Positions 5,975 through 47,542 of a DNA stretch of 64,000 nt are shown one piece after another; the stretch's first letter is position 1, and every line of letters begins with the position of its first letter. Origin of the DNA: Clostridium pasteurianum DSM 525 = ATCC 6013. Lineage in GTDB: Bacteria > Bacillota > Clostridia > Clostridiales > Clostridiaceae. Both the position numbers and the translations under genes were made by a program. The stretch is taken from contig NZ_CP009268.1 in assembly GCF_000807255.1 (NCBI RefSeq), positions 2,634,384 through 2,698,383 on the forward strand. The letters run 5' to 3'. A model generated the notes under the pieces. It was not told the DNA's origin, made no database searches, and saw only the letters and a program-made list of their open reading frames with translations.

Positions 5975-6607
5975 ATGTTTACATTGAGCTGTGAATTCAA
6001 AGATAATATACCTGTTTTTCATTGCGATACCTGTGGAAATTGTAAAAATTTTATAGAATCTACTTCTTATATAGGTATAAATAGAGGCTGCTGTTGGTAT
6101 TTTCCCAAGTATACCCTTATGGATATTAAAAATATAATAAACATAGGTAAAATAGATTTTATTTATTCACTTATAAAAAATGCAAATTCAAAAATATCTC
6201 AATACTTTATAGAAGTACAGGGTTTTTACAATAGTATTAAACATAAAGTATATTGTAAAAACAATAATCCTCAATTAGACTTTGACTCTAAATTATTCTT
6301 TAGAGTTTGTCCTTTTGTTGGCAAAAAAGGATGTACTATAGATTTTCAATTAAGACCTCACCCTTGTAACTTATACCTTTGCAGAGAAATTATAAAAAAA
6401 TCTGGTGAATCCTATAAAAAATATTCTAGAGAGAGAAAAGACTATTACTCCTACTGTAACTATTTCAATAATAGTTTAAAGTATGAATTTATGGATAAAG
6501 ATATTCATTTTTTTAAAGATTTTTCAAAATCCTTAAAAATTATCAAAGCTTTTAACATACCTGCTTATGAACCAATTAAACTTCCTAAAATAAAAGGAAC
6601 CCTTTAA
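5975..6607 (+). CDS. YkgJ-type cysteine-cluster protein (putative metal binding)
   Basis: This 210-residue cytoplasmic protein has the arrangement of the zinc/iron-chelating UPF0153/YkgJ group. An N-terminal cluster HCDTCGNCKNF is followed by GCCWYFP, a middle CPFVGKKGCTI and then HPCNLYLC. The spaced cysteines suggest a bound metal or iron-sulfur cluster; the biochemical role of the family is not established. It begins at an ATG behind GGGATGA. It stands alone, with a strong hairpin downstream and no functionally linked neighbour. Confidence 0.75.
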   Translation: MFTLSCEFKDNIPVFHCDTCGNCKNFIESTSYIGINRGCCWYFPKYTLMDIKNIINIGKIDFIYSLIKNANSKISQYFIEVQGFYNSIKHKVYCKNNNPQLDFDSKLFFRVCPFVGKKGCTIDFQLRPHPCNLYLCREIIKKSGESYKKYSRERKDYYSYCNYFNNSLKYEFMDKDIHFFKDFSKSLKIIKAFNIPAYEPIKLPKIKGTL

Positions 6608-32991: not shown

Positions 32992-33444
32992 TTATTTTAA
33001 CTGCCACATCTCATCAGCCTTAGAAAATAGTTGTTCTAAACCAGCTTTATGCTCTTCAAATTTTTGTATAACATATGTATCAGTTGTGTCTATTGGTTTC
33101 ATATTTTTATCCACATAGAGTTCATATGCTTCATTATCCTCTTGTATACTAAAACCATACTCATATCCACCTGATATCAATGGCCATATAATTAAAAGCT
33201 CACCTCTATTACTAGCTGATCTAGTTGATATTGCCAAATTCCCTGTATAATGTAAGTAATCTGGTTTTTTTACATGATAATTGTAACCATCTTTTAATAG
33301 AGAATGTACACCATCTCGATCTTTCGGTACAGCTTTTACAAATTTATTATATTTGATGGTTGTTATTAGAAACCAGCTAATATTTAGAGCTACAAATACT
33401 AATATGATAAATATAAAAATTCTTTTTCCAGTAATCTTCTTCAT
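32992..33444 (-). CDS. Membrane-anchored accessory protein of the lactococcin-972-type cluster
   Basis: This 150-residue protein has one N-terminal membrane helix (about 9-28) and an external domain of about 120 residues; I do not recognise the domain. Its start overlaps the ABC ATPase stop by four bases (ATGA), so it is translated with the transporter. Position and topology suggest an immunity or export accessory role, which is an inference. The 313 bases downstream (32679-32991) contain no gene, only a weak AAACTAAT / ATTAGTTT hairpin. Confidence 0.6.
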   Translation of the reverse strand: MKKITGKRIFIFIILVFVALNISWFLITTIKYNKFVKAVPKDRDGVHSLLKDGYNYHVKKPDYLHYTGNLAISTRSASNRGELLIIWPLISGGYEYGFSIQEDNEAYELYVDKNMKPIDTTDTYVIQKFEEHKAGLEQLFSKADEMWQLK

Positions 33445-34049
33445 AAATTCACCACTTTATTTCCTTGTTTTTTTATATTCTCATCATGGGTAACAAGTAT
33501 AATGGTTTTACCCTGTTTATTTAACTGTTTTAAAATATCAAGTACAGCTTCTGCATTCTTTTTATCAAGAGAACCTGTAGGCTCATCAGCCAATATAACA
33601 TCACACTTTTTTAGCATCAATCTAGCCAAAGCTACTCTTTGCTGCTCTCCTCCTGATAATGTATATATCTTTTTATTTAATTTGTCTTCTAAACCTATAA
33701 TACTCAAAGCATCTTCAATTGATAAATTTGTTTTGCAATCCTTACGAATTAATTTTAAGTTTTCTTTAACAGTCTTATTATCAACTAATGCAAAGTTTTG
33801 AAATAAAAAACCTATTTTTGTTCTGTAATAATTTAGATGATTCTTTTTATTTTTAATATCTATACCGTCAACTATTATTTTTCCATTATCAATTTTTTCA
33901 ATTGCACCAATCATATTTAATAAAGTTGTTTTTCCACAACCACTTGGTCCAGAAAATATAATAAAATCCCCATTTTCTATTGTTAAATTAAAATCTGAAA
34001 ATACTATTTTTTCATCAAATTTTTTATTTAAATTTTTTATTTCAATCAT
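33441..34049 (-). CDS. ABC transporter ATPase, lactococcin-972 bacteriocin group
   Basis: The 202-residue nucleotide-binding protein has Walker A SGPSGCGKTT, the Q-loop in FLFQNFALV, signature LSGGEQQRV, Walker B VILADEPTGSLD and the switch His in LVTHDE. Length and sequence fit the MacB/LolD-like subgroup that accompanies lactococcin 972-type bacteriocins. It overlaps the permease upstream and the anchored protein downstream by four bases each, forming a tightly coupled three-gene unit. Confidence 0.88.
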   Translation of the reverse strand: MIEIKNLNKKFDEKIVFSDFNLTIENGDFIIFSGPSGCGKTTLLNMIGAIEKIDNGKIIVDGIDIKNKKNHLNYYRTKIGFLFQNFALVDNKTVKENLKLIRKDCKTNLSIEDALSIIGLEDKLNKKIYTLSGGEQQRVALARLMLKKCDVILADEPTGSLDKKNAEAVLDILKQLNKQGKTIILVTHDENIKKQGNKVVNL

Positions 34050-36037
34050 AAATTTCCTCCTTTCAGTATGTTTTGAATTTTAGAATTTTCAATTTTATGT
34101 ATATAAAATGTAATAACAGATAGTTCTAATACTAAGATTCCTATTCCTCCAAAAGCTAAATAGTATACTTCTTCAGTTTTCAGTATTATAGCAACAATAA
34201 CAGCCATTATTATACTTGATATTGTAGTTATAATTGTCAACATAATAATTTTCCTATTTTTTTCTAAAATACTATATCCTAAGACTTTCTTAATAGAAAG
34301 CTCAATGGCATTCACTTCATACTCTAGTTTTATAATTGAGTTAATAATAATAAATTCCAATAGTAAAACTAAAATACTAAATACTAAATTAATATACAAA
34401 GCCTTTTTAGCTATAATCCACATATTCTCATATTTTTCCAACGAATTATTTTTTTCAATAAACTGCTCTTCTAAATTATGGTCTACTATAAATTTGTTAA
34501 ATTTATCAAATGCATCTTCTGATGATAGTTTATACATAACGTCTGCTAAATAATCTCCTTTTATTGAATCCTTATCACTACTCTGACTTCTAACTTGCTT
34601 ACCTGACATGTTATTATAAAGAATAACAGGGTTTTTAACTAAATCACTTCCATATATATAATCCTCGTCTATTCCAACAATATCTATATTATTATGGTAA
34701 TAAATCACACCATAATTGTAAACAAATTCAGTACCCTCTTTAGCTCGTATATCATTTTTTAGTAGATTAATAATGTCAGATTTATTTTTTGTTTTATCAG
34801 GTAATATAAAATAAAAATCTTTATCTAAATTAACATTGTTAATTTCATCTATCTTACTTGATAAATAAGCACGAGCATTTCTATTAGCTGAAATACCTTT
34901 TATACCTAAAAAATCCGAGATATTTTTTACTGAAGTTACGTGAAACTCTTCAAAGAATTCTCTATAAAATTCTGCATCTGCACTTGCAGATTTATCAAAA
35001 ACCCTATTATCAATAATGCCATTACTGTTTTCAATTTGCTTATACACAAACTCAATATAGTAATAATCTGAGTGGGCATCAAAAAAAGATTTTTGTTTAT
35101 AAAAACTATAAGATTGAGAAATTAAGGCTATATTACTAGATATTATAAAAATGGTAATAATAGTTGTCACTAATTTTAAAACATAATTAAGTGCTAACAA
35201 ATTTTTAGAACTTCTGCTGTTAGAAAAAACTTCTTTTACATCATAAAAATATAAATTTAAATACAATAAACTGTTGATACCTAATAAAATAATAAATGCT
35301 ATAATTGAAATTTTAAAATGAAACAATATGTAAGTATATCTTGATAAAATAGATAGTATTATTACAAAAGTTATTATGAATACTAGAGAATCTAAGAGAA
35401 CATTTTCTAAGATAATCTTACTTATTCTTTCTCCCATAGAGATCCTAACAACATTTTCTTTTTTTTGCTTGATAGCATCATAGTAAGACAATAATAAAAT
35501 AATACTAATGATAAGTAGCCATATAGCCATTGTATTATTTCTTGATTCCTTATCAGCATAGCCTTGTTTAGGATGATTGCCTGCATATTTATCAATTAAA
35601 TCCATCTTAAATTTATTAACTTGTTCCTTACTGCCAATAACATAATAATCATGTTGACTTTTAATATTAGGTATACTCTGAATATTATTAAATTTAAAAT
35701 TAGCATTCCCTAAAAAAAGACTTCTGTATTTTCTTCCAAATATATTTGAAATTTCGTTTATATGTTTTTCAGCTCCTGGGGTACAATAAATATCGTATTC
35801 AGTAAGAGAAATAGATGGATGAGACCTTATGAATGTAAATACCTGAACTCTATTTTTATTTGATGAATCAACTATATCAGCAATCATTTCTTCACTGGTT
35901 GTATTCCCTTGTAAATATAATGTAGTATTATTGTATTGAGTATAAAAATTATCTAAATAAAAAACATGGCTTTCCCCTATAATTAAAAAACCTATAAAAA
36001 TAATGAAAAAACTGATAATAAACTTAATTTTTTTCAA
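34046..36037 (-). CDS. Bacteriocin-associated integral membrane protein (ABC permease, DUF1430-like)
   Basis: This protein of about 663 residues has an N-terminal helix, a large external domain, and further helices near residues 170-290 and 545-650. This is the layout of the membrane proteins found beside lactococcin-972-type bacteriocins, thought to serve export or immunity. The start is TTG 36037, because GGAGGG lies at the correct distance before it; an upstream in-frame ATG at 36067 would place that ribosome site inside the gene. It lies directly downstream of the bacteriocin-like gene. Confidence 0.8.
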   Translation of the reverse strand: MKKIKFIISFFIIFIGFLIIGESHVFYLDNFYTQYNNTTLYLQGNTTSEEMIADIVDSSNKNRVQVFTFIRSHPSISLTEYDIYCTPGAEKHINEISNIFGRKYRSLFLGNANFKFNNIQSIPNIKSQHDYYVIGSKEQVNKFKMDLIDKYAGNHPKQGYADKESRNNTMAIWLLIISIILLLSYYDAIKQKKENVVRISMGERISKIILENVLLDSLVFIITFVIILSILSRYTYILFHFKISIIAFIILLGINSLLYLNLYFYDVKEVFSNSRSSKNLLALNYVLKLVTTIITIFIISSNIALISQSYSFYKQKSFFDAHSDYYYIEFVYKQIENSNGIIDNRVFDKSASADAEFYREFFEEFHVTSVKNISDFLGIKGISANRNARAYLSSKIDEINNVNLDKDFYFILPDKTKNKSDIINLLKNDIRAKEGTEFVYNYGVIYYHNNIDIVGIDEDYIYGSDLVKNPVILYNNMSGKQVRSQSSDKDSIKGDYLADVMYKLSSEDAFDKFNKFIVDHNLEEQFIEKNNSLEKYENMWIIAKKALYINLVFSILVLLLEFIIINSIIKLEYEVNAIELSIKKVLGYSILEKNRKIIMLTIITTISSIIMAVIVAIILKTEEVYYLAFGGIGILVLELSVITFYIHKIENSKIQNILKGGNL

Positions 36038-36094
36038 AAAAAAACCCTCCGGATCTTTAATTATCATTATGGATAATGATTATAATAATATATT

Positions 36095-36182: not shown

Positions 36183-36527
36183 CTAATATATTATTCCATA
36201 ATTTACTGCTGAACTTTTATGTGTAATCTCGATTTTCGCCCAGCTATTAGGACCTGCACTATCTCTACCAGATCCACCACCTCCATTTGAAACTGCTGCA
36301 TCATGCTGGTAGTCATAATGAATTGCATGTACATAATCTTCATTTATCCAAGATGTGTTATATCCATATATATATTTATACCTAGAACTAGTTACAGAAG
36401 CTTCCCAATCATTATTAAAGCTATGTCCTGCACTAGTTACCATATCAGTAGTAGCTTTGGCATTTGTATATGGAACAAGTATTGCTAAAAGAGCTAAAAC
36501 AGCAATTATTTTTTTTGATTTTTTCAT
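36183..36527 (-). CDS. Lactococcin-972-family bacteriocin precursor (putative)
   Basis: This 114-residue secreted peptide has a classic signal peptide (KKSKK, hydrophobic core, AKA cleavage site after residue 25). The predicted mature part of about 89 residues is rich in Ser, Tyr, Gly and Asn, with no Cys and a SNGGGGSGRDSAG segment. The layout and the neighbouring DUF1430-type permease and ATPase match lactococcin 972 clusters; that bacteriocin blocks septum formation through lipid II. Sequence similarity is weak, so the call rests partly on context. A 145-base leader carries a LytTR-type operator at 36679-36708, so agr control is likely. Confidence 0.65.
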   Translation of the reverse strand: MKKSKKIIAVLALLAILVPYTNAKATTDMVTSAGHSFNNDWEASVTSSRYKYIYGYNTSWINEDYVHAIHYDYQHDAAVSNGGGGSGRDSAGPNSWAKIEITHKSSAVNYGIIY

Positions 36528-36671
36528 ATAAAATTTCCTCCATAAATTAATATTTTGCTAATTTAATATGACAAAATAACTGTACAATCAAATTTTTGGA
36601 TTTCAAAATATTTTGTATAGATACGTACCTTACACATTTATTCTTACATAAAGTTCACTAAATTTAAACCT

Positions 36672-36708
36672 ATTATGTACAAACTGTTAATTTTCAAGCA
36701 TAAACTGC
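36672..36708 (-). promoter_or_regulatory. LytTR/AgrA-type operator and -10 upstream of the bacteriocin-like gene
   Basis: Minus strand: direct repeats GCAGTTTAT (36700-36708) and ACAGTTTGT (36679-36687) are separated by exactly 12 bp, the spacing of AgrA/ComE-type sites. A CATAAT -10-like hexamer (36672-36677) follows. The surrounding 85 bp are closely similar to the region upstream of the gene at 43666. The -35 region is poor, as expected for an activator-dependent promoter. Confidence 0.65.
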
Positions 36709-36808: not shown

Positions 36809-37489
36809 TTAGTCTGTCCAATTACCTTTCATATTCAATAGATAAAGTTTATTTTCATACATTCCAAAAGATAAATACATTGGCTGATATCTAACTGATA
36901 ATCTGGTTATCACTATATCATGTTCTCTCAACTGCAATGTATAATCATCCTCATAACCTAAGCTTTGAAGTATCTCCTTTGCTGCCTTAGAAGCCTCTTC
37001 TCTAACTGATTCGTTATTTAAAGCTGCACTGGATTTTGTATTAAAATCTAACATTTGAAAACCTAAAAGTTCACCACTTGGAGATATAAAATATTCACCA
37101 CCAGTATAGTAAGTTTTTTCAGATGGATTTTTTGCTCTTAATTCTAATCTCCAAAAATCCTTATTTCTTTGAAGTATATTTACCTTATAATCCTGAAAAT
37201 TGCTGCCAAAAAGTAGTTTTTCATATTTTTTTGCCATGTTTTCTGCATCTTTATCATTTTTTACTAATATAATACTTTTCACTTTAGTATCTTCTAATAA
37301 AGCTTGAATTTCAAAGCCGCTTATCTTATGGATTACACCTATATTCTTATTGTTAACACTCATCAACAGATAAGGTATTATTCTCCTGCTGAATATAACT
37401 GTCAGTATAACCACAAGAAACAGTGCTATTGTTATAAATAATGTATTATTACAGTAAATTATTTTCTTTTTATAATTCTGTTTCACCAC
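36809..37489 (-). CDS. Membrane-anchored protein of a two-component operon, function unknown
   Basis: This protein of about 226 residues has one N-terminal membrane helix (about 13-35) and an external domain of about 190 residues. I do not recognise the domain; the GEYFISPSGELLGF segment recalls PepSY-like folds. I place the start at GTG 37489, where AAGGGGA lies upstream inside the kinase gene; it overlaps the kinase stop by about 20 bp. Coupling to the kinase suggests a sensor-accessory role. The gene ends about 100 bases before the operator of the bacteriocin-like gene. Confidence 0.55.
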   Translation of the reverse strand: MVKQNYKKKIIYCNNTLFITIALFLVVILTVIFSRRIIPYLLMSVNNKNIGVIHKISGFEIQALLEDTKVKSIILVKNDKDAENMAKKYEKLLFGSNFQDYKVNILQRNKDFWRLELRAKNPSEKTYYTGGEYFISPSGELLGFQMLDFNTKSSAALNNESVREEASKAAKEILQSLGYEDDYTLQLREHDIVITRLSVRYQPMYLSFGMYENKLYLLNMKGNWTD

Positions 37490-38912
37490 CGCTTTTCCCC
37501 TTTTTAAAAATAATTGATACACAAGTACCTTTATTTTCCTCACTTTTAATATTCATAACAGCATGATGTAATACAACAATTTCATTACAAAGAGTTAAGC
37601 CAAGACCTGCACCATTGTGTTTACGAGTTCTAGATTTATCCACCATATAAAATGGTTCCATTATGTATGACAATTCCTTTTCGGGTATTCCAAAACCTTT
37701 ATCTATAATTTCAATAATAATTTTATCATCCTGTTCTTTACCCGCAAGATAGATTTCATCTCCATATGTGCTTGCCTTTATAGAATTATCCAGTAGATTT
37801 ATCAGTAGAGTTTTAAAAAGATCTCTTTCTATATTGAGAGAAATATCATCACAATGAATTTTAAGTTCAATATTCTTTTCCTTTAAACGTAATTTAAGAA
37901 TGTCATGCACCTGTTCAAATATAATATCCAATGGTGTAGTTTTAAGTTCAAGGTCCCCACTTTTTAGGTGAAACATAGTCATAAGCTTATGGGCCATAGA
38001 AGAAAGTCTTTTCCCTTCACTGGATATATAATTAAGTCCTTCATCCATTTCATAGGGTTCCTGCTTTACTGTACGCATAAGATCGGCATAGGCTATAATA
38101 GATGTAAGTGGCGTTTTTAATTCATGAGTAAAGTTTTCCACAAATCTCTGTCTCTGTTCAGCTATACTTTTAAGTTTCTTCTCTCTATTATCTATTGTTT
38201 CTGCCATAAGGTTTATTTGCTCAGTCAAGTGATAAATTTCATCATTTCCAACCAAAGGTACTCTTCTGGAATAATCCCCTTCTGATATGTGCTTAGTAAT
38301 AGTTTCAAGTTTTCTAAGAGGTTTAGTAAGTAAATATGAAATAATACCTAATATACCTGCAGCAAGAATACAAATTATAGAGCCAAACTCTATAAAATCA
38401 TTTATTTTTTTATTTTGATAGTTATATTCTTCAGTAATATTATTTATGGTATAAAGATTAAAGGAATCATCTCCAACTTTAAAGCTATTCCCAGCAATAA
38501 TCACTCTGTCCTTATCTAACTTATACATACCATAAGAAATATCTTTATCAAGCTTATTCATAGTATTTTCTATGTTATTTTTTATTGTATCACTGGTATT
38601 TGAAAAAATAATTTCATTATTGGAATTTGTTACTATAACCTGCCTTGAATTATCTCCTGTATGGGTAAGCTTTAATATAATATCTGATTGGTAAACCTTA
38701 TATATATCTGGTGAGTCTGCCAGTTGATTTTTCCAATAAACAAGACTGGTATATAGAGACTGCTGAAAGGATTGATGAGCTAAAAGTGCAACGGAATTTT
38801 CTCTTTTTACCATATCACTATAATCTCTGCTAAGCCATAGTATGCCAATCACATTGAAAGATAAGAATAGCACAATATATCCGCTAAGAAAAATTTTTTG
38901 CCAAAATCTCAT
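37470..38912 (-). CDS. Sensor histidine kinase (HAMP, HisKA, HATPase)
   Basis: This 480-residue protein has two membrane helices (about 8-30 and 172-195) around an external sensor domain. A HAMP domain (about 195-245) and a kinase core follow: H-box NFTHELKTPLTSI, N-box NLLDNSIKAS, DKGFGIPE and GAGLGLTLC. The regulator at 38916 ends 3 bp upstream. The stimulus is unknown; the ABC module upstream suggests a peptide or cell-envelope stress, which is an inference. Confidence 0.9.
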   Translation of the reverse strand: MRFWQKIFLSGYIVLFLSFNVIGILWLSRDYSDMVKRENSVALLAHQSFQQSLYTSLVYWKNQLADSPDIYKVYQSDIILKLTHTGDNSRQVIVTNSNNEIIFSNTSDTIKNNIENTMNKLDKDISYGMYKLDKDRVIIAGNSFKVGDDSFNLYTINNITEEYNYQNKKINDFIEFGSIICILAAGILGIISYLLTKPLRKLETITKHISEGDYSRRVPLVGNDEIYHLTEQINLMAETIDNREKKLKSIAEQRQRFVENFTHELKTPLTSIIAYADLMRTVKQEPYEMDEGLNYISSEGKRLSSMAHKLMTMFHLKSGDLELKTTPLDIIFEQVHDILKLRLKEKNIELKIHCDDISLNIERDLFKTLLINLLDNSIKASTYGDEIYLAGKEQDDKIIIEIIDKGFGIPEKELSYIMEPFYMVDKSRTRKHNGAGLGLTLCNEIVVLHHAVMNIKSEENKGTCVSIIFKKGKSGGETEL

Positions 38913-38915
38913 ATT

Positions 38916-39566
38916 TTACTCCAATCTATAGCCTGTTTTAAAAATTGTTTTAATTTCATTTTTCCATCCTAATTTTTTTCTTATGCGCTGCACATGAGCA
39001 TCTATAGTTCTTGTTTCTCCCATAAAATCATAACCCCATACCTTTTGCATGAGAACTTCTCTTGTCAAAGCAATATGCCTGTTCTTTATGAATAAAATCA
39101 ACAATTCATATTCCTTAGGCAGCAATTCTATCTGTTTACCATTCTTTATAACTTCATGACTATCTAAATTAATTTCTACATCACCATAAACAATTTTATT
39201 TGTAAGTTTGTTATTTCTGTTTAGTACAGCTCTTATACGTGCCAATAATTCCTGATATTCAAAAGGTTTTGTAATATAATCATCTGCACCTAATCTAAAA
39301 CCCTGAAGCTTATCTGTCAGTTCATCCTTAGCTGTTAAAAAGATTACAGAAATATTCTTAGGTTTAAGAATTTTTATCAAATCAAAACCATTTAGATAAG
39401 GAATCATAACATCCAATAATACTAAATCGAATTTATCTGTTTCAATTTTATGTAAAGCCTCTTGTCCATTATAAGCTGTTTCTGTATCATATCCGGCTAC
39501 TTTTAAATATTTGCATATTACATTTGAAATAGGTATTTCATCTTCCACTACTAGAATATTGTTCAT
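38916..39566 (-). CDS. OmpR/PhoB-family response regulator
   Basis: The receiver domain (about 1-115) has acidic residues in VVEDE, the phospho-acceptor in LVLLDVMIPYLNG and the TKPFEYQ lysine. The C-terminal winged helix has the LLPKEYELL and RTIDAHVQRIRKKL motifs. The 216-residue start at ATG 39566 has AGGTGAT upstream; an earlier in-frame start at 39599 lacks a site. It is first in the regulator-kinase-anchored protein operon, which is separated from the ABC genes by a terminator. Confidence 0.92.
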   Translation of the reverse strand: MNNILVVEDEIPISNVICKYLKVAGYDTETAYNGQEALHKIETDKFDLVLLDVMIPYLNGFDLIKILKPKNISVIFLTAKDELTDKLQGFRLGADDYITKPFEYQELLARIRAVLNRNNKLTNKIVYGDVEINLDSHEVIKNGKQIELLPKEYELLILFIKNRHIALTREVLMQKVWGYDFMGETRTIDAHVQRIRKKLGWKNEIKTIFKTGYRLE

Positions 39567-39680
39567 TGAATCACCTGCTTTTTTCATAGATATGTACAAT
39601 ATTATAGCATTTACTGTTACGTCAGACAGACTTTTTATTTAAATTTTACAAAATAAATACATCCTAGCTTTTTGGGTAAC

Positions 39681-39831: not shown

Positions 39832-40476
39832 TTATCTAAGGACAGTGAGTACCCCTGAATCCATTTCACTTACAGTATCGCAAAGCATTTCAATGTCTTC
39901 TGCACTGTGGCTGGCAAGTATAATGGTTTTCCCTTCATCCCGTAGTTTAATCAATAATTCACGCATATCCTTTACCCCATGTTTATCAATGCCGTTTAAT
40001 GGTTCATCCAATAGTAAAATAGATGGATTCTCCATTATAGCCTGAGCCATACCTAATCTTTGACGCATCCCGAGAGAGTATTTCCCTACCCACTTTTTAC
40101 TTTCAGGATCAAGTCCAACTCGCTTTATAACTGATTTAATATCTTTTTTATCAATAATATTATTAATAGAAGCAAGAAATTTCAGATTTTTATAACCATT
40201 ATAATTTGGTAAAAACCCTGGAGTTTCTATAATTATCCCTACATCTTTAGGAACATCTGTATCCTTTCCAATCCTTTTGTCATTTACAATTATTTCGCCA
40301 GAAGTTATAGGTACAAAACCACATATACATTTTAAAAGCATTGTTTTACCAGAACCATTTCGTCCAATTAAACCATGTATCTTGTTTTTCTCAAAATTTA
40401 TAGAAACATTTTTTAAAACCTGATTTTCTTTAAATGCTTTGCAAACATCATTAACACATACTGCCAAATTATTCAT
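39832..40476 (-). CDS. ABC transporter ATPase (BcrA-like)
   Basis: This 214-residue ATPase has Walker A GRNGSGKT, signature YSLGMRQRLGMAQ, Walker B ILLLDEPLNGID and the switch His in LASHSAED. It is of the short type that serves drug or lantibiotic self-protection exporters. It follows two permease genes and a lipoprotein gene in one direction and ends before a terminator. The substrate is unknown. Confidence 0.85.
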   Translation of the reverse strand: MNNLAVCVNDVCKAFKENQVLKNVSINFEKNKIHGLIGRNGSGKTMLLKCICGFVPITSGEIIVNDKRIGKDTDVPKDVGIIIETPGFLPNYNGYKNLKFLASINNIIDKKDIKSVIKRVGLDPESKKWVGKYSLGMRQRLGMAQAIMENPSILLLDEPLNGIDKHGVKDMRELLIKLRDEGKTIILASHSAEDIEMLCDTVSEMDSGVLTVLR

Positions 40477-40514: not shown

Positions 40515-41369
40515 TTAAACTGGCGGAAGCACTTCTATCTGCCGCTTACGTACTGATATAACTGAAATGACGCTTAGCACTATTATACCAATGATAAAGA
40601 ATATGTAAGCATAAAGGTTTGTAGGCCTTGGTGACATTCCCGTTGGGTCAAGTATTGTTAACCGCGCCATGGAGGATGGTGAAAAATGATAGTAGTAATA
40701 AGGCAAGCTATTTGCAACTACGAAATCAAATAGCACAATAGAAGAACCAACTATGGCACCAATTGAACGCTTTAAATAAATATTTATTATAAACATCACA
40801 AGTCCAACCATAGTACCTGCACACCATTGTAGTAGAAAGCTTAGTAAAAGAGCTTCTATGGGAGTATATTGCAATTGTATATTATAACTTATTGGTAAAA
40901 GTATTCCATATTTTTGACCTGCATTTGTTTGAGCTAAAGTGCCAAGCACTTTTCCCCAACCATTACTTAAAAATAAGCTTGGAGATAATATTAATATACT
41001 TATAATCACAATAAATAAAAAATAAATAGCTGTACCCAACATTATATATAGAACCTGACCTGCACCCCAAGGTATACGTCCACTTCTTACCATAAGATAG
41101 GTCTGACATTCATCCATAAAGGGTGCATCACAGAAGAGGAAGACTATACCCAGCATCATTAGCATCTGTGTAAAATACCAGTTTGATATATATGGAAATA
41201 ACCAAGGTGCAACTCTATAATTTACAATTTTAGAAAAACTTAATATAGGATTGACATAGTTCCATAGCATCAAAAAAAGTAATGCAGCTAAAATATAAAT
41301 TCGAGGATTTGATGCCCATTTTCTAATGTTATTAATGGATATAAAAAAAGTTTTTTGTAAATTAGCCAT
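40515..41369 (-). CDS. ABC-2-type permease subunit
   Basis: The protein has about 284 residues and six predicted helices, plus a conserved CDAPFMDECQTYLMVRSGR loop between helices 2 and 3. It pairs with the similar protein encoded upstream, overlapping by 8 bp. The start is ATG 41369 behind AGGAGG; an earlier in-frame start would run into the ribosome site. It presumably forms the membrane part of an exporter with the ATPase at 39832. Confidence 0.75.
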   Translation of the reverse strand: MANLQKTFFISINNIRKWASNPRIYILAALLFLMLWNYVNPILSFSKIVNYRVAPWLFPYISNWYFTQMLMMLGIVFLFCDAPFMDECQTYLMVRSGRIPWGAGQVLYIMLGTAIYFLFIVIISILILSPSLFLSNGWGKVLGTLAQTNAGQKYGILLPISYNIQLQYTPIEALLLSFLLQWCAGTMVGLVMFIINIYLKRSIGAIVGSSIVLFDFVVANSLPYYYYHFSPSSMARLTILDPTGMSPRPTNLYAYIFFIIGIIVLSVISVISVRKRQIEVLPPV

Positions 41370-42144
41370 TAGATAACCTCCTTTTTCCACTATTCACAAA
41401 TAATAAACCAATACAAATTATAAGTATACTATACAACACTGTAGCATATACCAAACTAAAAAAAGTTCCCTTTATTATAAAGCTTCCTTCAGCTATTCTA
41501 TTTAATCTTAACCATACAGGAAATTTGTAGGTGACTATATTGATCAAAGAGGATGCAATAAAAGGTGTGCACAATGCAACATATTTATTGGGAAGATAAG
41601 CGGATGCGCAAAGTCCTACAACAGACCAAAATGCACCTGTAAGGAAAGCAAGATATACATATACTGCAAAATACATAATATAATGCCCCTGCGAAAGGTA
41701 AATACCACCTAAAGTTTGAGTAGCAAAAGATTCAAAATTTGCTGCAGAGGTTGAAACAAGTTTTATCCATGGCATCAGGGATATAAAAAACAATATCATT
41801 CCTATGGCTATAGCACAGCCAGAGGATAATGCACAGCTAATAACCTTTGAGACACCATAATTTTTTATACCACTGCGTACTGCTATAAATTTTATATATT
41901 GACTATTCCAATCAGTACAAAAACTATTAGTGTATGGTAATACACATAATATTATTACCAAAGCACCTATACCACTTGCTTCAGAAGCATATTTGAAAAG
42001 ATAAAGACCGTCTGACGCAATTTTCATTTCATTCCATGAAGCTGCATAGTAAAAAATACATACGGCAATTACAGATGCCCAAAAACCATAGGATATAAAA
42101 GCTCTCCGTATATCCATGAATATAGTGTGAATAATACGATTCAT
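41362..42144 (-). CDS. ABC-2-type permease subunit, second
   Basis: The protein has about 260 residues and six hydrophobic helices. A DWNSQYIKFIAVRSGIKNYG loop after helix 2 parallels the CQTYLMVRSGR loop of its partner, so the two permeases are distant paralogues that probably form a heterodimer. The start is ATG 42144 behind AGGAGGA, ten bases after the lipoprotein stop. Confidence 0.75.
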   Translation of the reverse strand: MNRIIHTIFMDIRRAFISYGFWASVIAVCIFYYAASWNEMKIASDGLYLFKYASEASGIGALVIILCVLPYTNSFCTDWNSQYIKFIAVRSGIKNYGVSKVISCALSSGCAIAIGMILFFISLMPWIKLVSTSAANFESFATQTLGGIYLSQGHYIMYFAVYVYLAFLTGAFWSVVGLCASAYLPNKYVALCTPFIASSLINIVTYKFPVWLRLNRIAEGSFIIKGTFFSLVYATVLYSILIICIGLLFVNSGKRRLSNG

Positions 42145-42154
42145 AAAAATCCTC

Positions 42155-43291
42155 CTAACGAATTTCCTTTCCATCTACTGCATTGATACGAACATTAGTA
42201 TAAATTTGTGTCTCTTCTTTCCCTTTACTTTCTCTCTGATTAATATTAAAAAGCCATGTAGGTATTAATTCTATATTTCGATTTTCCCCTTTTGAATTAG
42301 TTACTACAGGTGAATACACTAAAGATATACCAGACACTACTATTTTATCTGATAATATCACGTCAGAATATTTTTTTTCAATACTGATAAGTGCCTGAGA
42401 TATTGTAATTAAAGGTAAATTACTTTTTTTTACGGATTTCTCACGATATACTGTACCATTTATAAAAAAAGATTGTATACCATTTTTAGAAATAAGTATA
42501 CTTACCTCACTACCTTCTGCCTGAATATCAGTATTTGTAACTGCATAACCAAATGGATCACAAGGAATACTTCTAATAGAGTTACGAAAAAATATATAAT
42601 AGCTGTCATCTTCGTTGCTCCAGTTATCTTTCAGTCTTATCTTTCCCATATCTACAAAATCCTTAAAAGCTTTATCCTCCCTAAGAAGTCGCTCCTGCTC
42701 TTGCTTAATAGTTTTATTGTCTAATGCATAAACAGTAGGCGAACCATAAGGAATAATACTTAGCTCCATCAAAACTTTACGTGCCTCTTCAATTGCTTTT
42801 TCCTTTGTCATAAATGGAAGTTCTTGAGATTTAAATTTATTAAGATTACCACTTTGTAATGTGTTAACAATGGTATCAATATGTTTTGATAAAGGTGTAT
42901 TAACTTTAAATGGAGCTTTAAAAGGAATATCAAGTATTCTTCCCCCAATAGAATATTGTGTACTATATGGAGATTTTTCTTTTTTTACTACACTAGAACC
43001 TAAAAATATATCACATAGCTTTTTTTCGTCAAATACAGCATCTTCAACTTGTAATATAGATGCATTATTTATATTTGGCTTGTCTACCACAGCATCTACC
43101 ACTATATTATTTCCTAGTGATGCCTTATATTTTCCCGACTGATCTGCACTTAATTCTTTACCACTTACCTCTGTACTATTATTTTTTGTACTTTTATCCG
43201 TTTTTATAATTTCCTCAGTGGTACATGCTGAAAACGTGAGAATAAAAAAAATTGTTGTTAAACTTAATAAGGCCTTGTTTAATTTTAACAT
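42155..43291 (-). CDS. Lipoprotein of the ABC operon, function unknown
   Basis: This 378-residue protein has a lipoprotein signal with lipobox LTFSAC at about residue 23, so it is probably anchored to the outer face of the membrane. The rest is an external domain that I do not assign to a family; its layout recalls the YycH/regulatory lipoproteins of Firmicutes. It is first in the operon with two permeases and an ATPase. The role might be substrate capture or protection. A candidate promoter lies at 43336-43363. Confidence 0.7.
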   Translation of the reverse strand: MLKLNKALLSLTTIFFILTFSACTTEEIIKTDKSTKNNSTEVSGKELSADQSGKYKASLGNNIVVDAVVDKPNINNASILQVEDAVFDEKKLCDIFLGSSVVKKEKSPYSTQYSIGGRILDIPFKAPFKVNTPLSKHIDTIVNTLQSGNLNKFKSQELPFMTKEKAIEEARKVLMELSIIPYGSPTVYALDNKTIKQEQERLLREDKAFKDFVDMGKIRLKDNWSNEDDSYYIFFRNSIRSIPCDPFGYAVTNTDIQAEGSEVSILISKNGIQSFFINGTVYREKSVKKSNLPLITISQALISIEKKYSDVILSDKIVVSGISLVYSPVVTNSKGENRNIELIPTWLFNINQRESKGKEETQIYTNVRINAVDGKEIR

Positions 43292-43610: not shown

Positions 43611-43650
43611 CATAAAAAATAAATGATCAAGCTGCTAGTAAGCTTGACCA
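43611..43650 (-). terminator. Terminator after the DUF2712-like gene
   Basis: Arms TGGTCAAGCT / AGCTTGATCA with a seven-base loop are followed by TTTATTTTTT on the minus strand, directly after the stop. The rest of 43364-43610 is AT-rich without a gene. Confidence 0.85.
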
Positions 43651-43665
43651 CTTATTTTATTGTTA

Positions 43666-44049
43666 TTATGGTGTCCAACGACCAGCTACATGCACATAGT
43701 AAGGACTAGCTGAATCTTGTTGACCTTTAAGTCTATAATAATCACCAGCATATCCTGTTGATATATAATTCAATGTAAAACTTATATTTGCATTAGCCCA
43801 CTTAGTTTCAGTTTTTATATTATCAGCAGAATCTCTTACACGAAACCATGTTTTATCACTGTTTATAAAATTGCTGCTCGTAATACTTACATAAGCTCGT
43901 TGTTCACTATCTGCCTTATGCACAAAGCTAGAATAACCAGATTGTCCTGGATTAAGTGTAAAATCAAATAGAGCTGTATCAGCAAAAGCTGGTACACTTA
44001 TTGCTAATATTATAAGAGAAACAATACCTGACATAATTAATTTTTTCAT
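43666..44049 (-). CDS. Secreted DUF2712-like protein under agr-type control
   Basis: This 127-residue protein has a clear signal peptide ending AFA (cleavage after residue 23). The mature part of about 104 residues has no Cys and alternating aromatic and polar residues typical of a small beta-rich secreted protein (FDFTLNPGQSGYSS, YYVHVAGRW). It resembles DUF2712 proteins, which have no known function and often occur near bacteriocin or agr genes. It shares its upstream operator block with the bacteriocin-like gene at 36183 and stands divergent to agrB. A role as a secreted effector or bacteriocin is possible but unproven. Confidence 0.7.
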   Translation of the reverse strand: MKKLIMSGIVSLIILAISVPAFADTALFDFTLNPGQSGYSSFVHKADSEQRAYVSITSSNFINSDKTWFRVRDSADNIKTETKWANANISFTLNYISTGYAGDYYRLKGQQDSASPYYVHVAGRWTP

Positions 44050-44224
44050 GTTTACCCCTCCATCATAATAATTTTATACCTAATCTGTATTGTTTATTAA
44101 CTAGCATAAAATATACAGTAAAAGGATCTGATTTAATAAAACAGTGTAACTTTATAGAAAAATATTTTTATGTACTGCTTATCTACAAATTTATTTTCAC
44201 ATAAAAATCACCAAATTTAAACCT

Positions 44225-44261
44225 ATTATACACAAAACGTTAATTTCTAAACATAAACTGC
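44225..44261 (-). promoter_or_regulatory. LytTR/AgrA-type operator and -10 upstream of the DUF2712-like gene
   Basis: Minus strand: GCAGTTTAT (44253-44261), exactly 12 bp, then ACGTTTTGT (44232-44240), then a perfect -10 TATAAT (44225-44230). The block from about 44180 to 44262 is highly similar to 36630-36710. The rest of the 176-base leader shows no strong hairpin. Confidence 0.65.
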
Positions 44262-44280
44262 AGTATATTTTTTAAAAATA

Positions 44281-44310
44281 ACTGTTTATGTTCAAAAAAT
44301 GACGTTTCAT
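44281..44310 (+). promoter_or_regulatory. LytTR/AgrA-type operator upstream of agrBD
   Basis: Plus strand: ACTGTTTAT (44281-44289), exactly 12 bp, then ACGTTTCAT (44302-44310). It points to agrB, 70 bases away, and lies back-to-back with the operator of the divergent gene. A -10-like TATACA is at 44321-44326; no good -35 exists, as expected for activator dependence. Confidence 0.6.
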
Positions 44311-44380
44311 GCCTTGCTCATATACATTTGTTTAAATTTTTAGTATCTTAGAAGTCAAATGATACATAAAAGGTGATAAA

Positions 44381-44950
44381 ATGATAAATAAATGTGCATT
44401 CAAGATAACTGAATATATAAAGTACAATAGTGATATAAGCAATTCTGATGATTTAGATAAAATAAATTATGTATTACAGGTTATTTTAGGCGAACTATTT
44501 AAGATAATCATCTTAATTTTAGTATTTTCTATTTTAGGAAGGTTACATTATTTCTTATTTTCTATGATTGTTTTAATTTCCACTAGGATTTTCATAGGTG
44601 GTTACCATTGTAAAACTACTCTGAGGTGTTTATTATCTTCAGCATTCTTTTTTATAATTACATCTTTGATAGTTTCTTCATTTTCTAATGTTAATGCATT
44701 AGTTTATTATGGAATTTCAATATTGAGTATACTGATAATCATTTTATATGCACCTTTTCCGAATTTTAAAAGGCCTGTTAAAACAGAAAAAAGAAGGTAT
44801 AATTTAAAATTGATATCAGTTTTTTCTGTGTTGACTTGGATATGTATTTTGTTATTTAAAGTTGATAATCCAAGCTATTTAAATTGTGGATTCTCTACAA
44901 TTTTATTAGAAGTTCTTCAAATTTTTCTACTGGGAGGTGAAAATAAATGA
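44381..44950 (+). CDS. agrB: AgrB peptidase, autoinducer-processing membrane protein
   Basis: This 189-residue membrane protein of the AgrB family cuts the AgrD C-terminal tail and cyclises the signal peptide. The catalytic His76 and Cys83 lie in GGYHCKTTLRC with the conserved six-residue spacing. Four to five hydrophobic helices follow. Its stop codon overlaps the agrD start (ATGA). An AGGTGAT precedes the ATG. It is divergent from the DUF2712-like gene, with a LytTR-type operator between them. Confidence 0.93.
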   Translation: MINKCAFKITEYIKYNSDISNSDDLDKINYVLQVILGELFKIIILILVFSILGRLHYFLFSMIVLISTRIFIGGYHCKTTLRCLLSSAFFFIITSLIVSSFSNVNALVYYGISILSILIIILYAPFPNFKRPVKTEKRRYNLKLISVFSVLTWICILLFKVDNPSYLNCGFSTILLEVLQIFLLGGENK

Positions 44951-45087
44951 TTAATAAAAAACTACATAAATCCATCTTAAATAAGGCAGGCTTTTGTTTA
45001 ATTGCTGTAGCCAGCTTTATAACTGTGTCTAGTTCTTTATTCCTTCTAGGGGAACCTACCCCGCCTAAAAGTTTATATAATGATTAA
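44947..45087 (+). CDS. agrD: AgrD autoinducer peptide precursor (Ser-type)
   Basis: This 46-codon gene overlaps agrB by four bases and has GGGAGGTG as ribosome site. The product has an amphipathic N-terminus (KKLHKSILNKAG), a central hydrophobic part, the segment VSSSLFLL, and a charged, Pro-rich tail GEPTPPKSLYND. This is the AgrD plan. In known precursors a Cys, or rarely Ser, followed by four residues forms the (thio)lactone ring just before the acidic tail. Here that position is Ser30 with LFLL, predicting a lactone. The only Cys (17) is in the N-terminal part. Confidence 0.88.
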   Translation: MINKKLHKSILNKAGFCLIAVASFITVSSSLFLLGEPTPPKSLYND

Positions 45088-45216: not shown

Positions 45217-45246
45217 ACTTAGTTGGAGTTCGAACTCCAACTAAGT
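45217..45246. terminator. Perfect 30-bp palindrome between convergent agrD and agrC
   Basis: ACTTAGTTGGAGTTC and its exact complement form a 14-bp stem without spacer. Lying between convergent genes, it could end transcription from both sides, though T-runs are lacking. The preceding hairpin at about 45137-45175, with TCTTTTAC in its loop, resembles the first hairpin of the repeat family at 6793 and 48311. Confidence 0.5.
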
Positions 45247-45262
45247 AAGATTCATTGATGAT

Positions 45263-46531
45263 TTAAATGATAATTTTAAAGACAGTGTAATCTTCATCAA
45301 AAAACATTTGAATGTCACCACCTTTTCCTTTCACTATTTTTTTCACATTGTACAGTCCATATCCTCTATTTTTACCTTCCTTAGTAGAAAACCCACTTTT
45401 AAATATACTATTAATCTGTTCTTCTTTTATGGGTATTCCATTATTTTTAACTTCTATTATACTTTTATTATTTTCAATTAATATGTTCAAAATAACTGTT
45501 TTAATATTATTTTTATATTCCTCTTGAATCTGTACCGCTTCAAAGGCATTATTTAAAAGATTGCCAAGTATATCTGATATTTCATAATCTCGCAACTTAT
45601 TTTCTAAATACTTATCTTTTACATTGTATAAAAACTTTATTTTAAGTCTTTCTGCTTCACATTTCTTATTATATACTATAGCTTTTATTATTGTATTATT
45701 TATGTATAATATATCTTCTATATTTTTATTTGCAGAAATTGATGATTTAATATATTCTTTTAATTGACTTTTTAACAGTTTTTCATCCGTTACTTCAATC
45801 ATTCCATTTATGGTATTTATATAATTTTTAAAATCATGCTGTTTTCTCTTAACTTCATCAATGGTAGCCTCTATAATGGAACTATATTCCTTTTGTACTT
45901 CTAACACCCTTTTTTCTTCTATAATTTTTGATATATATATAAACAAATATATCTGTACTAAAAAGATTATTACTAAACATACTATGTAAATCATCACATT
46001 ATATAAAATAATATTTTTATTATATTCCCATATTATCTTGGATATTATTAAACACATTCCAATATTTATGGAAAAATAGTATATAACTTTAGAATCTATA
46101 ATTTGTATACTTTTTTTTCTTTTATTGAATATTAAATAGTAACCCAATATAGCTATAATTAAAATAAGTATATTGATTGTAATATCACTCATAAATCTTT
46201 CTGAATACATTTCATTAATATATTGCTGTAGAAAAAATATACCTATTAATTGCAGTATAATAAGAACTGCACCTAATATTACAAATTCAAGAATTGTTTT
46301 AATTAATTTTTTACAGTACAAAAATTTAATTGCAAATATGGTAATCAAAAATCCAAAAACAGTATTAATATCCATCAAATCAATAAAGGTTACTGCTATT
46401 GAACTTATAAAAATTACAGATAGATTTTTTGACAGGTTACTTTCTTCTTTTAAGAAAAGTTTAGACCACAAAAATATAATTGTAATCAATTCAATAAAAA
46501 TATTGCTAAAAGTTTTAATAAATTCAATCAT
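45263..46531 (-). CDS. agrC: AgrC-type sensor histidine kinase (GHKL)
   Basis: This 422-residue protein has about six N-terminal membrane helices (1-205), the typical peptide-sensing domain of AgrC-like kinases. A coiled linker and a kinase core follow: phospho-acceptor His in RKQHDFKNYINT, N-box NLLNNAFEAVQ and G-box GYGLYNVKKIV. It should bind the cyclic peptide made by AgrB from AgrD. It follows agrA by 24 bp in the same operon and converges with agrBD. Confidence 0.9.
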   Translation of the reverse strand: MIEFIKTFSNIFIELITIIFLWSKLFLKEESNLSKNLSVIFISSIAVTFIDLMDINTVFGFLITIFAIKFLYCKKLIKTILEFVILGAVLIILQLIGIFFLQQYINEMYSERFMSDITINILILIIAILGYYLIFNKRKKSIQIIDSKVIYYFSINIGMCLIISKIIWEYNKNIILYNVMIYIVCLVIIFLVQIYLFIYISKIIEEKRVLEVQKEYSSIIEATIDEVKRKQHDFKNYINTINGMIEVTDEKLLKSQLKEYIKSSISANKNIEDILYINNTIIKAIVYNKKCEAERLKIKFLYNVKDKYLENKLRDYEISDILGNLLNNAFEAVQIQEEYKNNIKTVILNILIENNKSIIEVKNNGIPIKEEQINSIFKSGFSTKEGKNRGYGLYNVKKIVKGKGGDIQMFFDEDYTVFKIII

Positions 46532-46555: not shown

Positions 46556-47290
46556 TTATTTTCCTTTTAATTTTTCCAAAACACTATTTTTAAATTTATA
46601 TCCCAAAAGAGCTTTTTTACTGGATTTTTCAAAGTAAAGCTCACTTAATCTGGAATCTATCTTTTCAATAAACTTTATATAATTAATATTTACTAAAAAA
46701 GATTTATAACTTTGAATTATATAATTACAGTTTATAAGCTTCAATATATTTTTTAAGGATACTTTCTTTAAGGTGTAACTGTCCCTTATAGTATTTACTA
46801 TGCATGTCCTCATACTGCTTTCAATAAAGATTATTTCATCAATATAAAATTTCATGCTGACTCCGCTTTTTAAGTCAAGAAATACAGACTTTCTTTCCTT
46901 TTCCTGAACAGAATTATTTTTAGCATGAGCACTAAATTTTTTAATCATACTTATAATCTCATCTTTATCATAGGGCTTAACAATATAATCATAACAATGT
47001 GCCTGTTTAAAAGCCTGAGTTAAATATTCTACATGAGTAGTTAAAAAAACCATCCAACTGAATTCATATCTAGATATTTTTCTAAGGTCAAGAGCAAGCT
47101 CTAATCCTGAAGAATTTTTTAAAGAAATGTCTATAAAAAATAAATCTATATGTACATTATTTGAAATTTTTAATGCCTGATCTTTATCCTGAGCTTCATG
47201 TATATTAAATTCAGCATCTATCATGTATAGCATTTTCTTTAAATTTTCACATTGTTTAATATCATCTTCTGCCACTAGAATATTTTTCAC
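46556..47290 (-). CDS. agrA: AgrA-type LytTR response regulator
   Basis: This regulator of about 244 residues has a receiver domain (phospho-acceptor Asp in LFFIDISLKNSSG, CYDYIVKPYDKDE) and a C-terminal LytTR DNA-binding domain (about 140-244, with FIESSMRTCIV and SYKSFLVNINYI). LytTR proteins bind direct repeats 21 bp apart, which are present at three sites nearby. I choose GTG 47290, eight bases after AGGTGA, over an upstream GTG inside that site. It is the first gene of agrAC. Confidence 0.9.
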   Translation of the reverse strand: MKNILVAEDDIKQCENLKKMLYMIDAEFNIHEAQDKDQALKISNNVHIDLFFIDISLKNSSGLELALDLRKISRYEFSWMVFLTTHVEYLTQAFKQAHCYDYIVKPYDKDEIISMIKKFSAHAKNNSVQEKERKSVFLDLKSGVSMKFYIDEIIFIESSMRTCIVNTIRDSYTLKKVSLKNILKLINCNYIIQSYKSFLVNINYIKFIEKIDSRLSELYFEKSSKKALLGYKFKNSVLEKLKGK

Positions 47291-47542
47291 TAGATATATC
47301 ACCTGCCTGTAGTAATACTAATTTAATATTTTTAACAATAAAAATATCTATTTAACAATTTTTCTATATTTATATACTATCATAGCTTTTATTATATTTA
47401 AAATACACTTTTTGCCAATATATAATCAAAACAATTACATATTAACAATTTTTATTTATTATGGAACTCTATTTTATTGACAAAATCTAAGCCCAATTTA
47501 AATAAAATTCATAAATTAAGCCTAGACTTATTAAAAAATTCC

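Follow-up and report, generated by a model that had tools for sequence, protein, structure and literature searches.

A LytTR-type operator set probably joining an agr locus to two bacteriocin-type cassettes in Clostridium pasteurianum

The closest described systems are the following. The agr P2/P3 region of Staphylococcus aureus contains paired direct repeats and two diverging promoters, and its signal genes are autoregulated (PMC4227749, PMC8748961). Operators of the LytTR/AgrA type are defined as two repeats of 9 to 11 nt, 11 to 13 nt apart (PMC4847170). Autoregulated promoters of the LytTR Regulatory Systems carry 9-12-9 repeats (9-bp repeats separated by 12 bp), with a strong bias toward 10 bp before the -35 element and 13 to 17 bp from there to the -10 element (PMC6193735). 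VirR boxes of Clostridium perfringens are paired direct repeats of 12 bp (PMC2688746), and the bacteriocin regulon pln of Lactobacillus plantarum is governed by quorum sensing, its DNA repeats being bound by two response regulators (PMC2714321). Clostridium acetobutylicum has agrBD and agrCA in two units, and the neighbouring gene CA_C0082 is agr dependent in reporter assays; the same report describes the roles of agr systems in clostridia as little known (PMC10301443).

The window, i.e., the whole stretch of 64,000 bp analysed here (positions 2,634,384 to 2,698,383 of the single 4,352,101-bp contig), encodes an agr system, recognized by domain matches as agrB, an agrC-type kinase, and agrA with a LytTR domain. 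AgrB is encoded on the plus strand (44381..44950; Pfam ID PF04647, 127.9 bits against a cut-off of 23). It is followed by agrD (44947..45087, plus strand), which overlaps the agrB end and codes for a 46-residue peptide with the likely ring SLFLL before GEPTPP; its match to TIGR04223 (18.9 bits) lies 0.1 bit below the NCBIfam cut-off of 19, and by eye it resembles the AgrD of relatives. Convergent with agrBD, on the minus strand, are the gene for an AgrC-type histidine kinase (45263..46531; HATPase/GHKL over cut-off) and agrA (46556..47302), the presumed binder. The AgrA-type gene that an earlier note on this DNA had placed at 46556 is borne out, as both the receiver (PF00072) and the LytTR (PF04397) domains score over cut-off. 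A perfect 28-base palindrome (45218-45245) separates the two convergent units. The residue five positions before GE or GQ is Ser in 20 of 33 AgrD peptides and Cys in the other 13 (3 of 36 loci gave no peptide); the window AgrD has Ser five before GE, so that its signal may be a lactone rather than a thiolactone.

The genome as a whole contains 5 AgrB matches (E ≤ 0.001) and 8 LytTR matches; in C. autoethanogenum, a single agrB has been reported (PMC8748961). One agrB of the genome is followed by a 45-aa AgrD-like open reading frame (ORF) and then by a 619-aa gene; a published arrangement unites an agrB, a 57-aa AgrD ORF, and a kinase (PMC5367854). Locus L192 (C1:208501-228000) encodes an AgrA/AgrC-like pair and, close to it, a double-glycine peptide, a C39 exporter, and a large helicase-like protein, the last resembling an anti-phage model at a score far below the cut-off; composite LytTR sites occur in this region as well.

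Three candidate operators of the LytTR type, S1 to S3, can be read directly from the sequence. S3 (44281..44310, plus strand; ACTGTTTAT-12-ACGTTTCAT) precedes agrB and is the candidate operator of agrBD. S2 (44232..44261, minus strand; GCAGTTTAT-12-ACGTTTTGT) is back to back with S3, the first repeats of the two lying 19 bp apart. S1 (36679..36708; GCAGTTTAT-12-ACAGTTTGT) also lies on the minus strand. Each consists of two repeats within the range of 9 to 11 nt separated by 11 to 13 nt, and each continues with 10 bp, a -35-like hexamer, 17 bp, and a -10-like hexamer, in agreement with the geometry given in PMC6193735. The predicted core promoter of S3 (44321..44349, plus strand), placed by column alignment with the sites of other genomes, has TATACA (44321-44326) and TATCTT (44344-44349). 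That of S2 (44193..44221, minus strand) would comprise TTTAAA (44221-44216), 17 bp ending in TGT, and GAAAAT (44198-44193); that of S1 (36640..36668, minus strand), TTTAAA (36668-36663), 17 bp again ending in TGT, and AAGAAT (36645-36640). All these hexamers are weak (4 of 6 positions or so), and a generic sigma-70 promoter scan of the region gives chance-level counts (79 versus 82.5).

S1 and S2 are identical at 60 of 72 positions. Counted in blocks of ten bases, 7 to 10 positions are identical between about -10 and +80, and 2 to 6 beyond, the similar block being about 90 bp long; what is shared includes the complete first repeat, the -35-like TTTAAA, and the TGT preceding the -10. This common promoter block is probably a copy. 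The earlier note had listed three 9-12-9 direct repeats, without giving strands, the first two in similar blocks and the third ahead of agrB; the repeats lie exactly at the positions given there, the likeness of the S1 and S2 blocks is as just described, and S3 does precede the agrB start at 44381 on its strand.

A genome-wide motif search had been proposed in the earlier note. The degenerate pattern derived from S1-S3 matches the 4,352,101-bp genome without mismatch at three places only, those of S1-S3, a circular result, and with up to two mismatches it occurs at random frequency (143 matches versus 149 for the reversed control). The test was therefore moved to a model derived from other genomes. 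A search with an AgrA alignment retained 80 related loci, 55 of which (L074-L128) were analysed; agrB was found in 35 of these. Among the 18 periods tried upstream of agrB in these 35 loci and the window, 21 comes out best in 20 of 36 cases (ties counted), and the next period in 5. For the window's own agrB, this crude test favours 26, not 21.

A first, harsher position-weight model of the repeats only, from 23 sites, ranks S3 first, S2 ninth, and S1 859th; a second repeats-only model, from 17 of these sites (6 near-duplicate or weak ones dropped), places S3 and S2 first and fourth, with S1 much further down (score 1.9). Iterated models yield 61 distinct sites scoring at least 19, one of them S3 and one elsewhere in the same genome. 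Their common design is TCYKTTYATG, 11 bp, ACGTTTYRTG, 9 bp, a -35 like TTGAAT, 17 bp, and a weak -10, with the tenth base, G, counted into each repeat. Leaving out both sites of the C. pasteurianum genome gives a cross-species model of 59 sites. With repeats plus promoter, it places S3, S2, and S1 at ranks 1, 2, and 3 of 127,858 window positions, and the same ranks result from all 72 columns. The repeats alone give ranks 1, 2, and 21 for S3, S2, and S1, respectively, and the promoter part alone gives ranks 626, 89, and 21. Of the 59 training sites, each left out together with its close relatives, 57 still score at least 10; such a score also occurs in 4 of 500 random 320-bp stretches and at 4 of the 127,858 window positions.

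The comparison with relatives shows an operator scoring at least 10 upstream of agrB in 22 of 35 loci, many of which supplied training sites; the other 13 fall below 10. Among these, L085 scores low because its ORF start was set too far upstream, the site being present, and L113 scores 5.6, with a weak site seen by the repeats-only model. The remaining 11 include the locus of C. acidisoli (L101), a member of the same genus, as well as loci of C. drakei (L103), C. carboxidivorans (L126), and C. liquoris (L109). The distance from the end of the second repeat to the agrB start is about 70 bp in many loci. Across 206 genomes of the family, an exact pattern has 36 matches in 15 genomes, versus 10 matches in 9 genomes for the reversed control. 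AgrA of the window type (E ≤ 1e-30) is encoded in 12 of these 15 genomes, compared with 73 of all 206 (Fisher p = 3e-4) and with 2 of the 9 control genomes; 3 of the 15 lack it. Only this link to AgrA is partly independent, because the pattern was designed from loci that lie partly in these genomes and 3 of its matches are those of C. pasteurianum itself.

Copies of the operator also precede genes other than agrB. They are found ahead of a class II bacteriocin-like peptide with a double-glycine leader (L161; 22.1 bits, below the Pfam cut-off of 27.1), a C39 peptidase exporter (L085), an M13 peptidase (L099), a choline-binding-repeat protein (L176), a polysaccharide deacetylase (L163), a thioredoxin-like protein (L188), an ABC ATPase (L081), and further unnamed secreted proteins and lipoproteins. 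Pfam searches with 10 such target genes left 3 without a family. For 11 of the 61 sites, including the agrB artefact of L085, no gene was found in reach, and some other assignments of sites to genes are spurious ORFs. The earlier reading of the repeats as LytTR-type operators is strengthened by this conservation before agrB in many relatives and by the copies before secreted-protein or bacteriocin-type genes. Operators of agr loci and of targets differ at 3.38 of 20 positions within a genome, versus 4.94 between genomes (permutation p = 1e-4; 9 genomes, two of them close relatives, with the agr-locus operator of L098 taken by position because no agrB was found there). Of the nine agr-locus operators, S3 is the one that S1 and S2 resemble most. 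S3, for its part, resembles the target sites in 6 of the 8 other genomes more than it does S1 and S2.

Two near-identical strong composite sites lie at 6071-6142 and 6900-6971 of L191, a locus of the same C. pasteurianum genome, on the minus strand, with no recognisable gene downstream; they possibly serve small peptides or RNAs. Among the genome matches of the three-site pattern with up to two mismatches, an identical 30-mer, ACTTTTTATGTGTGACGACGTGCTTTTTGT, occurs at at least 8 places, e.g., 11998, 52525, 61967, and 1556712, and is probably part of a repeated element.

The gene behind S2 (43666..44049, minus strand) codes for a secreted 127-aa protein that belongs to no Pfam or NCBIfam family at E ≤ 0.001 and 0.05, respectively, and is bacteriocin-like by context only. 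The earlier note had called it DUF2712-like; this did not hold, as no Pfam DUF2712 match was obtained at E ≤ 1 for the S2 protein and its three homologues, in searches where HMMER filters discard most matches above E of about 0.1. Its cassette continues on the minus strand with a lipoprotein-like gene (42155..43291) and two permease-like genes (41362..42174 and 40515..41390, neither with an NCBIfam match), all named by eye and from gene order, and an ABC ATPase (39832..40476), whose nearest NCBIfam model is the lantibiotic-protection ABC protein TIGR03740 (189.5 bits, below the cut-off of 309.75). Homologues of the S2 protein are found in three other genomes of the 206 (E = 9e-21, 3e-10, and 8.9e-4, the third being weak). 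In L199 and L200, the homologue heads a like order of lipoprotein-like gene, two permease-like genes, and ATPase, and in L201 the lipoprotein gene is absent. Directly upstream of the homologue in genome G019 is the best-scoring site of its 16-kb contig (10.8); the best sites of the corresponding contigs of G141 and G115 score 6.5 and -0.6. A structure model of the S2 protein, made from two sequences, is unusable for a comparison with the lactococcin 972 fold (mean pLDDT of 34.8).

Between the S2 gene and the lipoprotein gene are 374 bp with a hairpin (43627-43647, minus strand), which lies just behind the S2 gene, is soon followed by a T-rich stretch, and may limit read-through into the ABC genes. 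The stretch between the S2 and S1 cassettes (37470-39599) encodes a HisKA histidine kinase and an OmpR-type regulator, which possibly form a sensor of bacteriocin stress.

The gene behind S1 (36183..36527, minus strand) belongs to the mediterrocin family (NF052268, 120.5 bits against a cut-off of 40). An earlier assignment as lactococcin-972-like gives way to this family, the lactococcin match being weak (16 bits, cut-off 32.1). Mediterrocin itself has been reported as a bacteriocin of Mediterraneibacter gnavus, whose cluster includes a probable immunity protein and an ABC protein (PMC12345188). The cassette in the window combines the mediterrocin-family protein with a DUF1430 membrane protein and an ABC ATPase, the last recognized by eye only. 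The bacteriocin-associated membrane protein, probably for immunity (34046..36067, minus strand), matches PF07242 (DUF1430; 32.2 bits, cut-off 28.2) and, below the cut-off of 189.35, TIGR01654 (37.6 bits). The ATPase (33441..34049, minus strand) was named from its motifs, and the gene order is alike in L193 and L194. Both the S1 and S2 cassettes are thus read as bacteriocin type, that of S2 from context only. In genome G018, the mediterrocin promoter carries no such site, the best score within 15 kb being 2.7 and not upstream, and the cassette of G128 is cut off at the contig end; control of the mediterrocin cassette by agr therefore looks like a local acquisition via the block shared by S1 and S2, on the strength of one comparison.

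The helical phasing of back-to-back operators is the least expected result. Fifteen such pairs, from the window and from L074, L075, L082, L085, L090, L098, L099, L121, L122, L161, L172, and L179, have gaps between first repeats of 8, 8, 9, 16, 17, 18, 18, 18, 19 (the window), 24, 27, 37, 37, 38, and 39 bp, that is, about 8 bp plus multiples of 10, except for 24. Against uniform gaps, with the period free from 9.5 to 11.5, the permutation p is 4e-4, and it is 2e-3 after homologous pairs are merged to 13, values that are optimistic because the genomes are related. The partner site scores only 11 to 14 in 4 of the 15 pairs; the other 11 alone also give p = 4e-4. With such gaps, all four half-sites would share one face of the DNA. 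A tentative extension, possible rather than likely, is that back-to-back operators might act as one cooperative unit, in which two AgrA pairs would touch and fire signal and weapon genes together, and that such promoter blocks might be copied to recruit new bacteriocin cassettes.

From the sequence, geometry, conservation, and gene content, we infer binding, activation, and a signal as follows. AgrB would process AgrD to a cyclic peptide, which at high cell density would activate AgrC, and AgrC would phosphorylate AgrA. A pair of AgrA molecules would occupy both 9-bp repeats from the same side of the DNA and, with a weak -35 element 10 bp downstream, recruit RNA polymerase. At S3 this would give positive feedback on agrBD, and at S2 and S1 it would turn on the two bacteriocin-type cassettes, and the promoter block, probably a copy, would have brought the mediterrocin cassette under agr control. 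Crowding would thus probably turn on both signalling and weapons. The agrCA unit lacks such a site and is therefore probably not autoregulated through it. We assign a probability of about 0.8 to the reading that S1-S3 serve as operators of AgrA (46556-47302), S3 for feedback on agrBD and S2 and S1 as switches of bacteriocin-type cassettes.

Several other explanations were weighed against it. The random genome frequency of the three-site pattern with two mismatches (143 versus 149) is what would be expected if the repeats had arisen by chance in intergenic DNA rich in AT; the model built on other genomes, however, puts the three sites at ranks 1 to 3 of 127,858, and the period of 21 stands out among 18 periods over 36 loci, which makes chance extremely improbable. 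It is a less remote, if still unlikely, idea that only S3 and S2 function and that S1, as a drifting copy of the promoter block, has lost its binding. The second repeat of S1 departs most from the cross-species model, repeats-only models rank S1 21st and 859th, and the mediterrocin promoter of G018 does without such a site. Against drift, S1 keeps 60 of 72 positions of S2, including the first repeat, TTTAAA, and the TGT before the -10, and it ranks third when the promoter is included.

The neighbouring AgrA is, we infer, the natural binder of S1-S3, and the main competitor for this role is a second AgrA-like regulator (C1:218665-219384), 44% identical to AgrA, which could also bind them. Should another LytTR regulator, this paralogue in particular, be the main or an additional reader of S1-S3, the bacteriocin cassettes would answer a different or a second signal. 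The paralogue lies near a double-glycine peptide and a C39 exporter, five sites of this composite design (scores of 19 to 26) occur within the 37.5 kb around it, and the genome offers 8 LytTR matches to choose from. Yet S3 precedes the agrB of the agrA locus, as in relatives, the repeats of S1 and S2 are nearest to S3 among the nine agr-locus operators, and eight 3-kb loci of the same genome (those of the seven other LytTR genes, including the paralogue, and of one other agrB) contain no composite site above 10.8. Such a role for another regulator is accordingly rather improbable, and AgrA of the agr locus is preferred.

S1-S3 provide a defined operator that is found before agrB in many clostridial loci and that suggests a regulon made up of secreted proteins and bacteriocins. 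It could serve as a ready reporter for an agr signal, and it illustrates how a copied promoter probably drew a bacteriocin cassette into a quorum circuit. Among the papers listed in searches of the open-licence PMC literature, there was no clostridial AgrA operator of the S1-S3 kind, no link between agr and mediterrocin, no agr/bacteriocin regulon like that of S1-S3, and no operator phasing.

As in the agr P2/P3 region of S. aureus, the locus combines paired direct repeats, diverging promoters, and signal genes that would be autoregulated. Here, in contrast, agrBD and agrCA are separate convergent units, and a bacteriocin-type gene takes the place of the regulatory RNA as divergent partner. 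The repeat consensus of staphylococcal AgrA presumably differs from the repeat sequence of S1-S3. VirR of C. perfringens is a LytTR-type regulator, and the inducing peptide of the plantaricin system is linear, not a cyclic AgrD product. The VirR boxes are likened here by description: they are paired direct repeats, as in the window, but with repeats of 12 bp (PMC2688746). The plantaricin (pln) system shares the quorum control of bacteriocins via repeats bound by response regulators (PMC2714321). C. acetobutylicum shares the arrangement of agrBD and agrCA as two units and an agr-dependent neighbour gene; its target, CA_C0082, is lanthipeptide-synthetase-like, and the operator is left undefined in the portions of the report used here (PMC10301443). 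The 9-12-9 repeats with 10 bp to the -35 have the geometry most often tabulated for the LytTR Regulatory Systems, which pair the regulator with an inhibitory membrane protein, whereas here it is paired with a kinase and a cyclic peptide (PMC6193735). Since the geometry is the tabulated one and quorum control of bacteriocins is known in lactobacilli, S1-S3 are, by the features tested, a LytTR operator set that would work like the known ones. The type of switch is a known one; its set of targets seems to be new.
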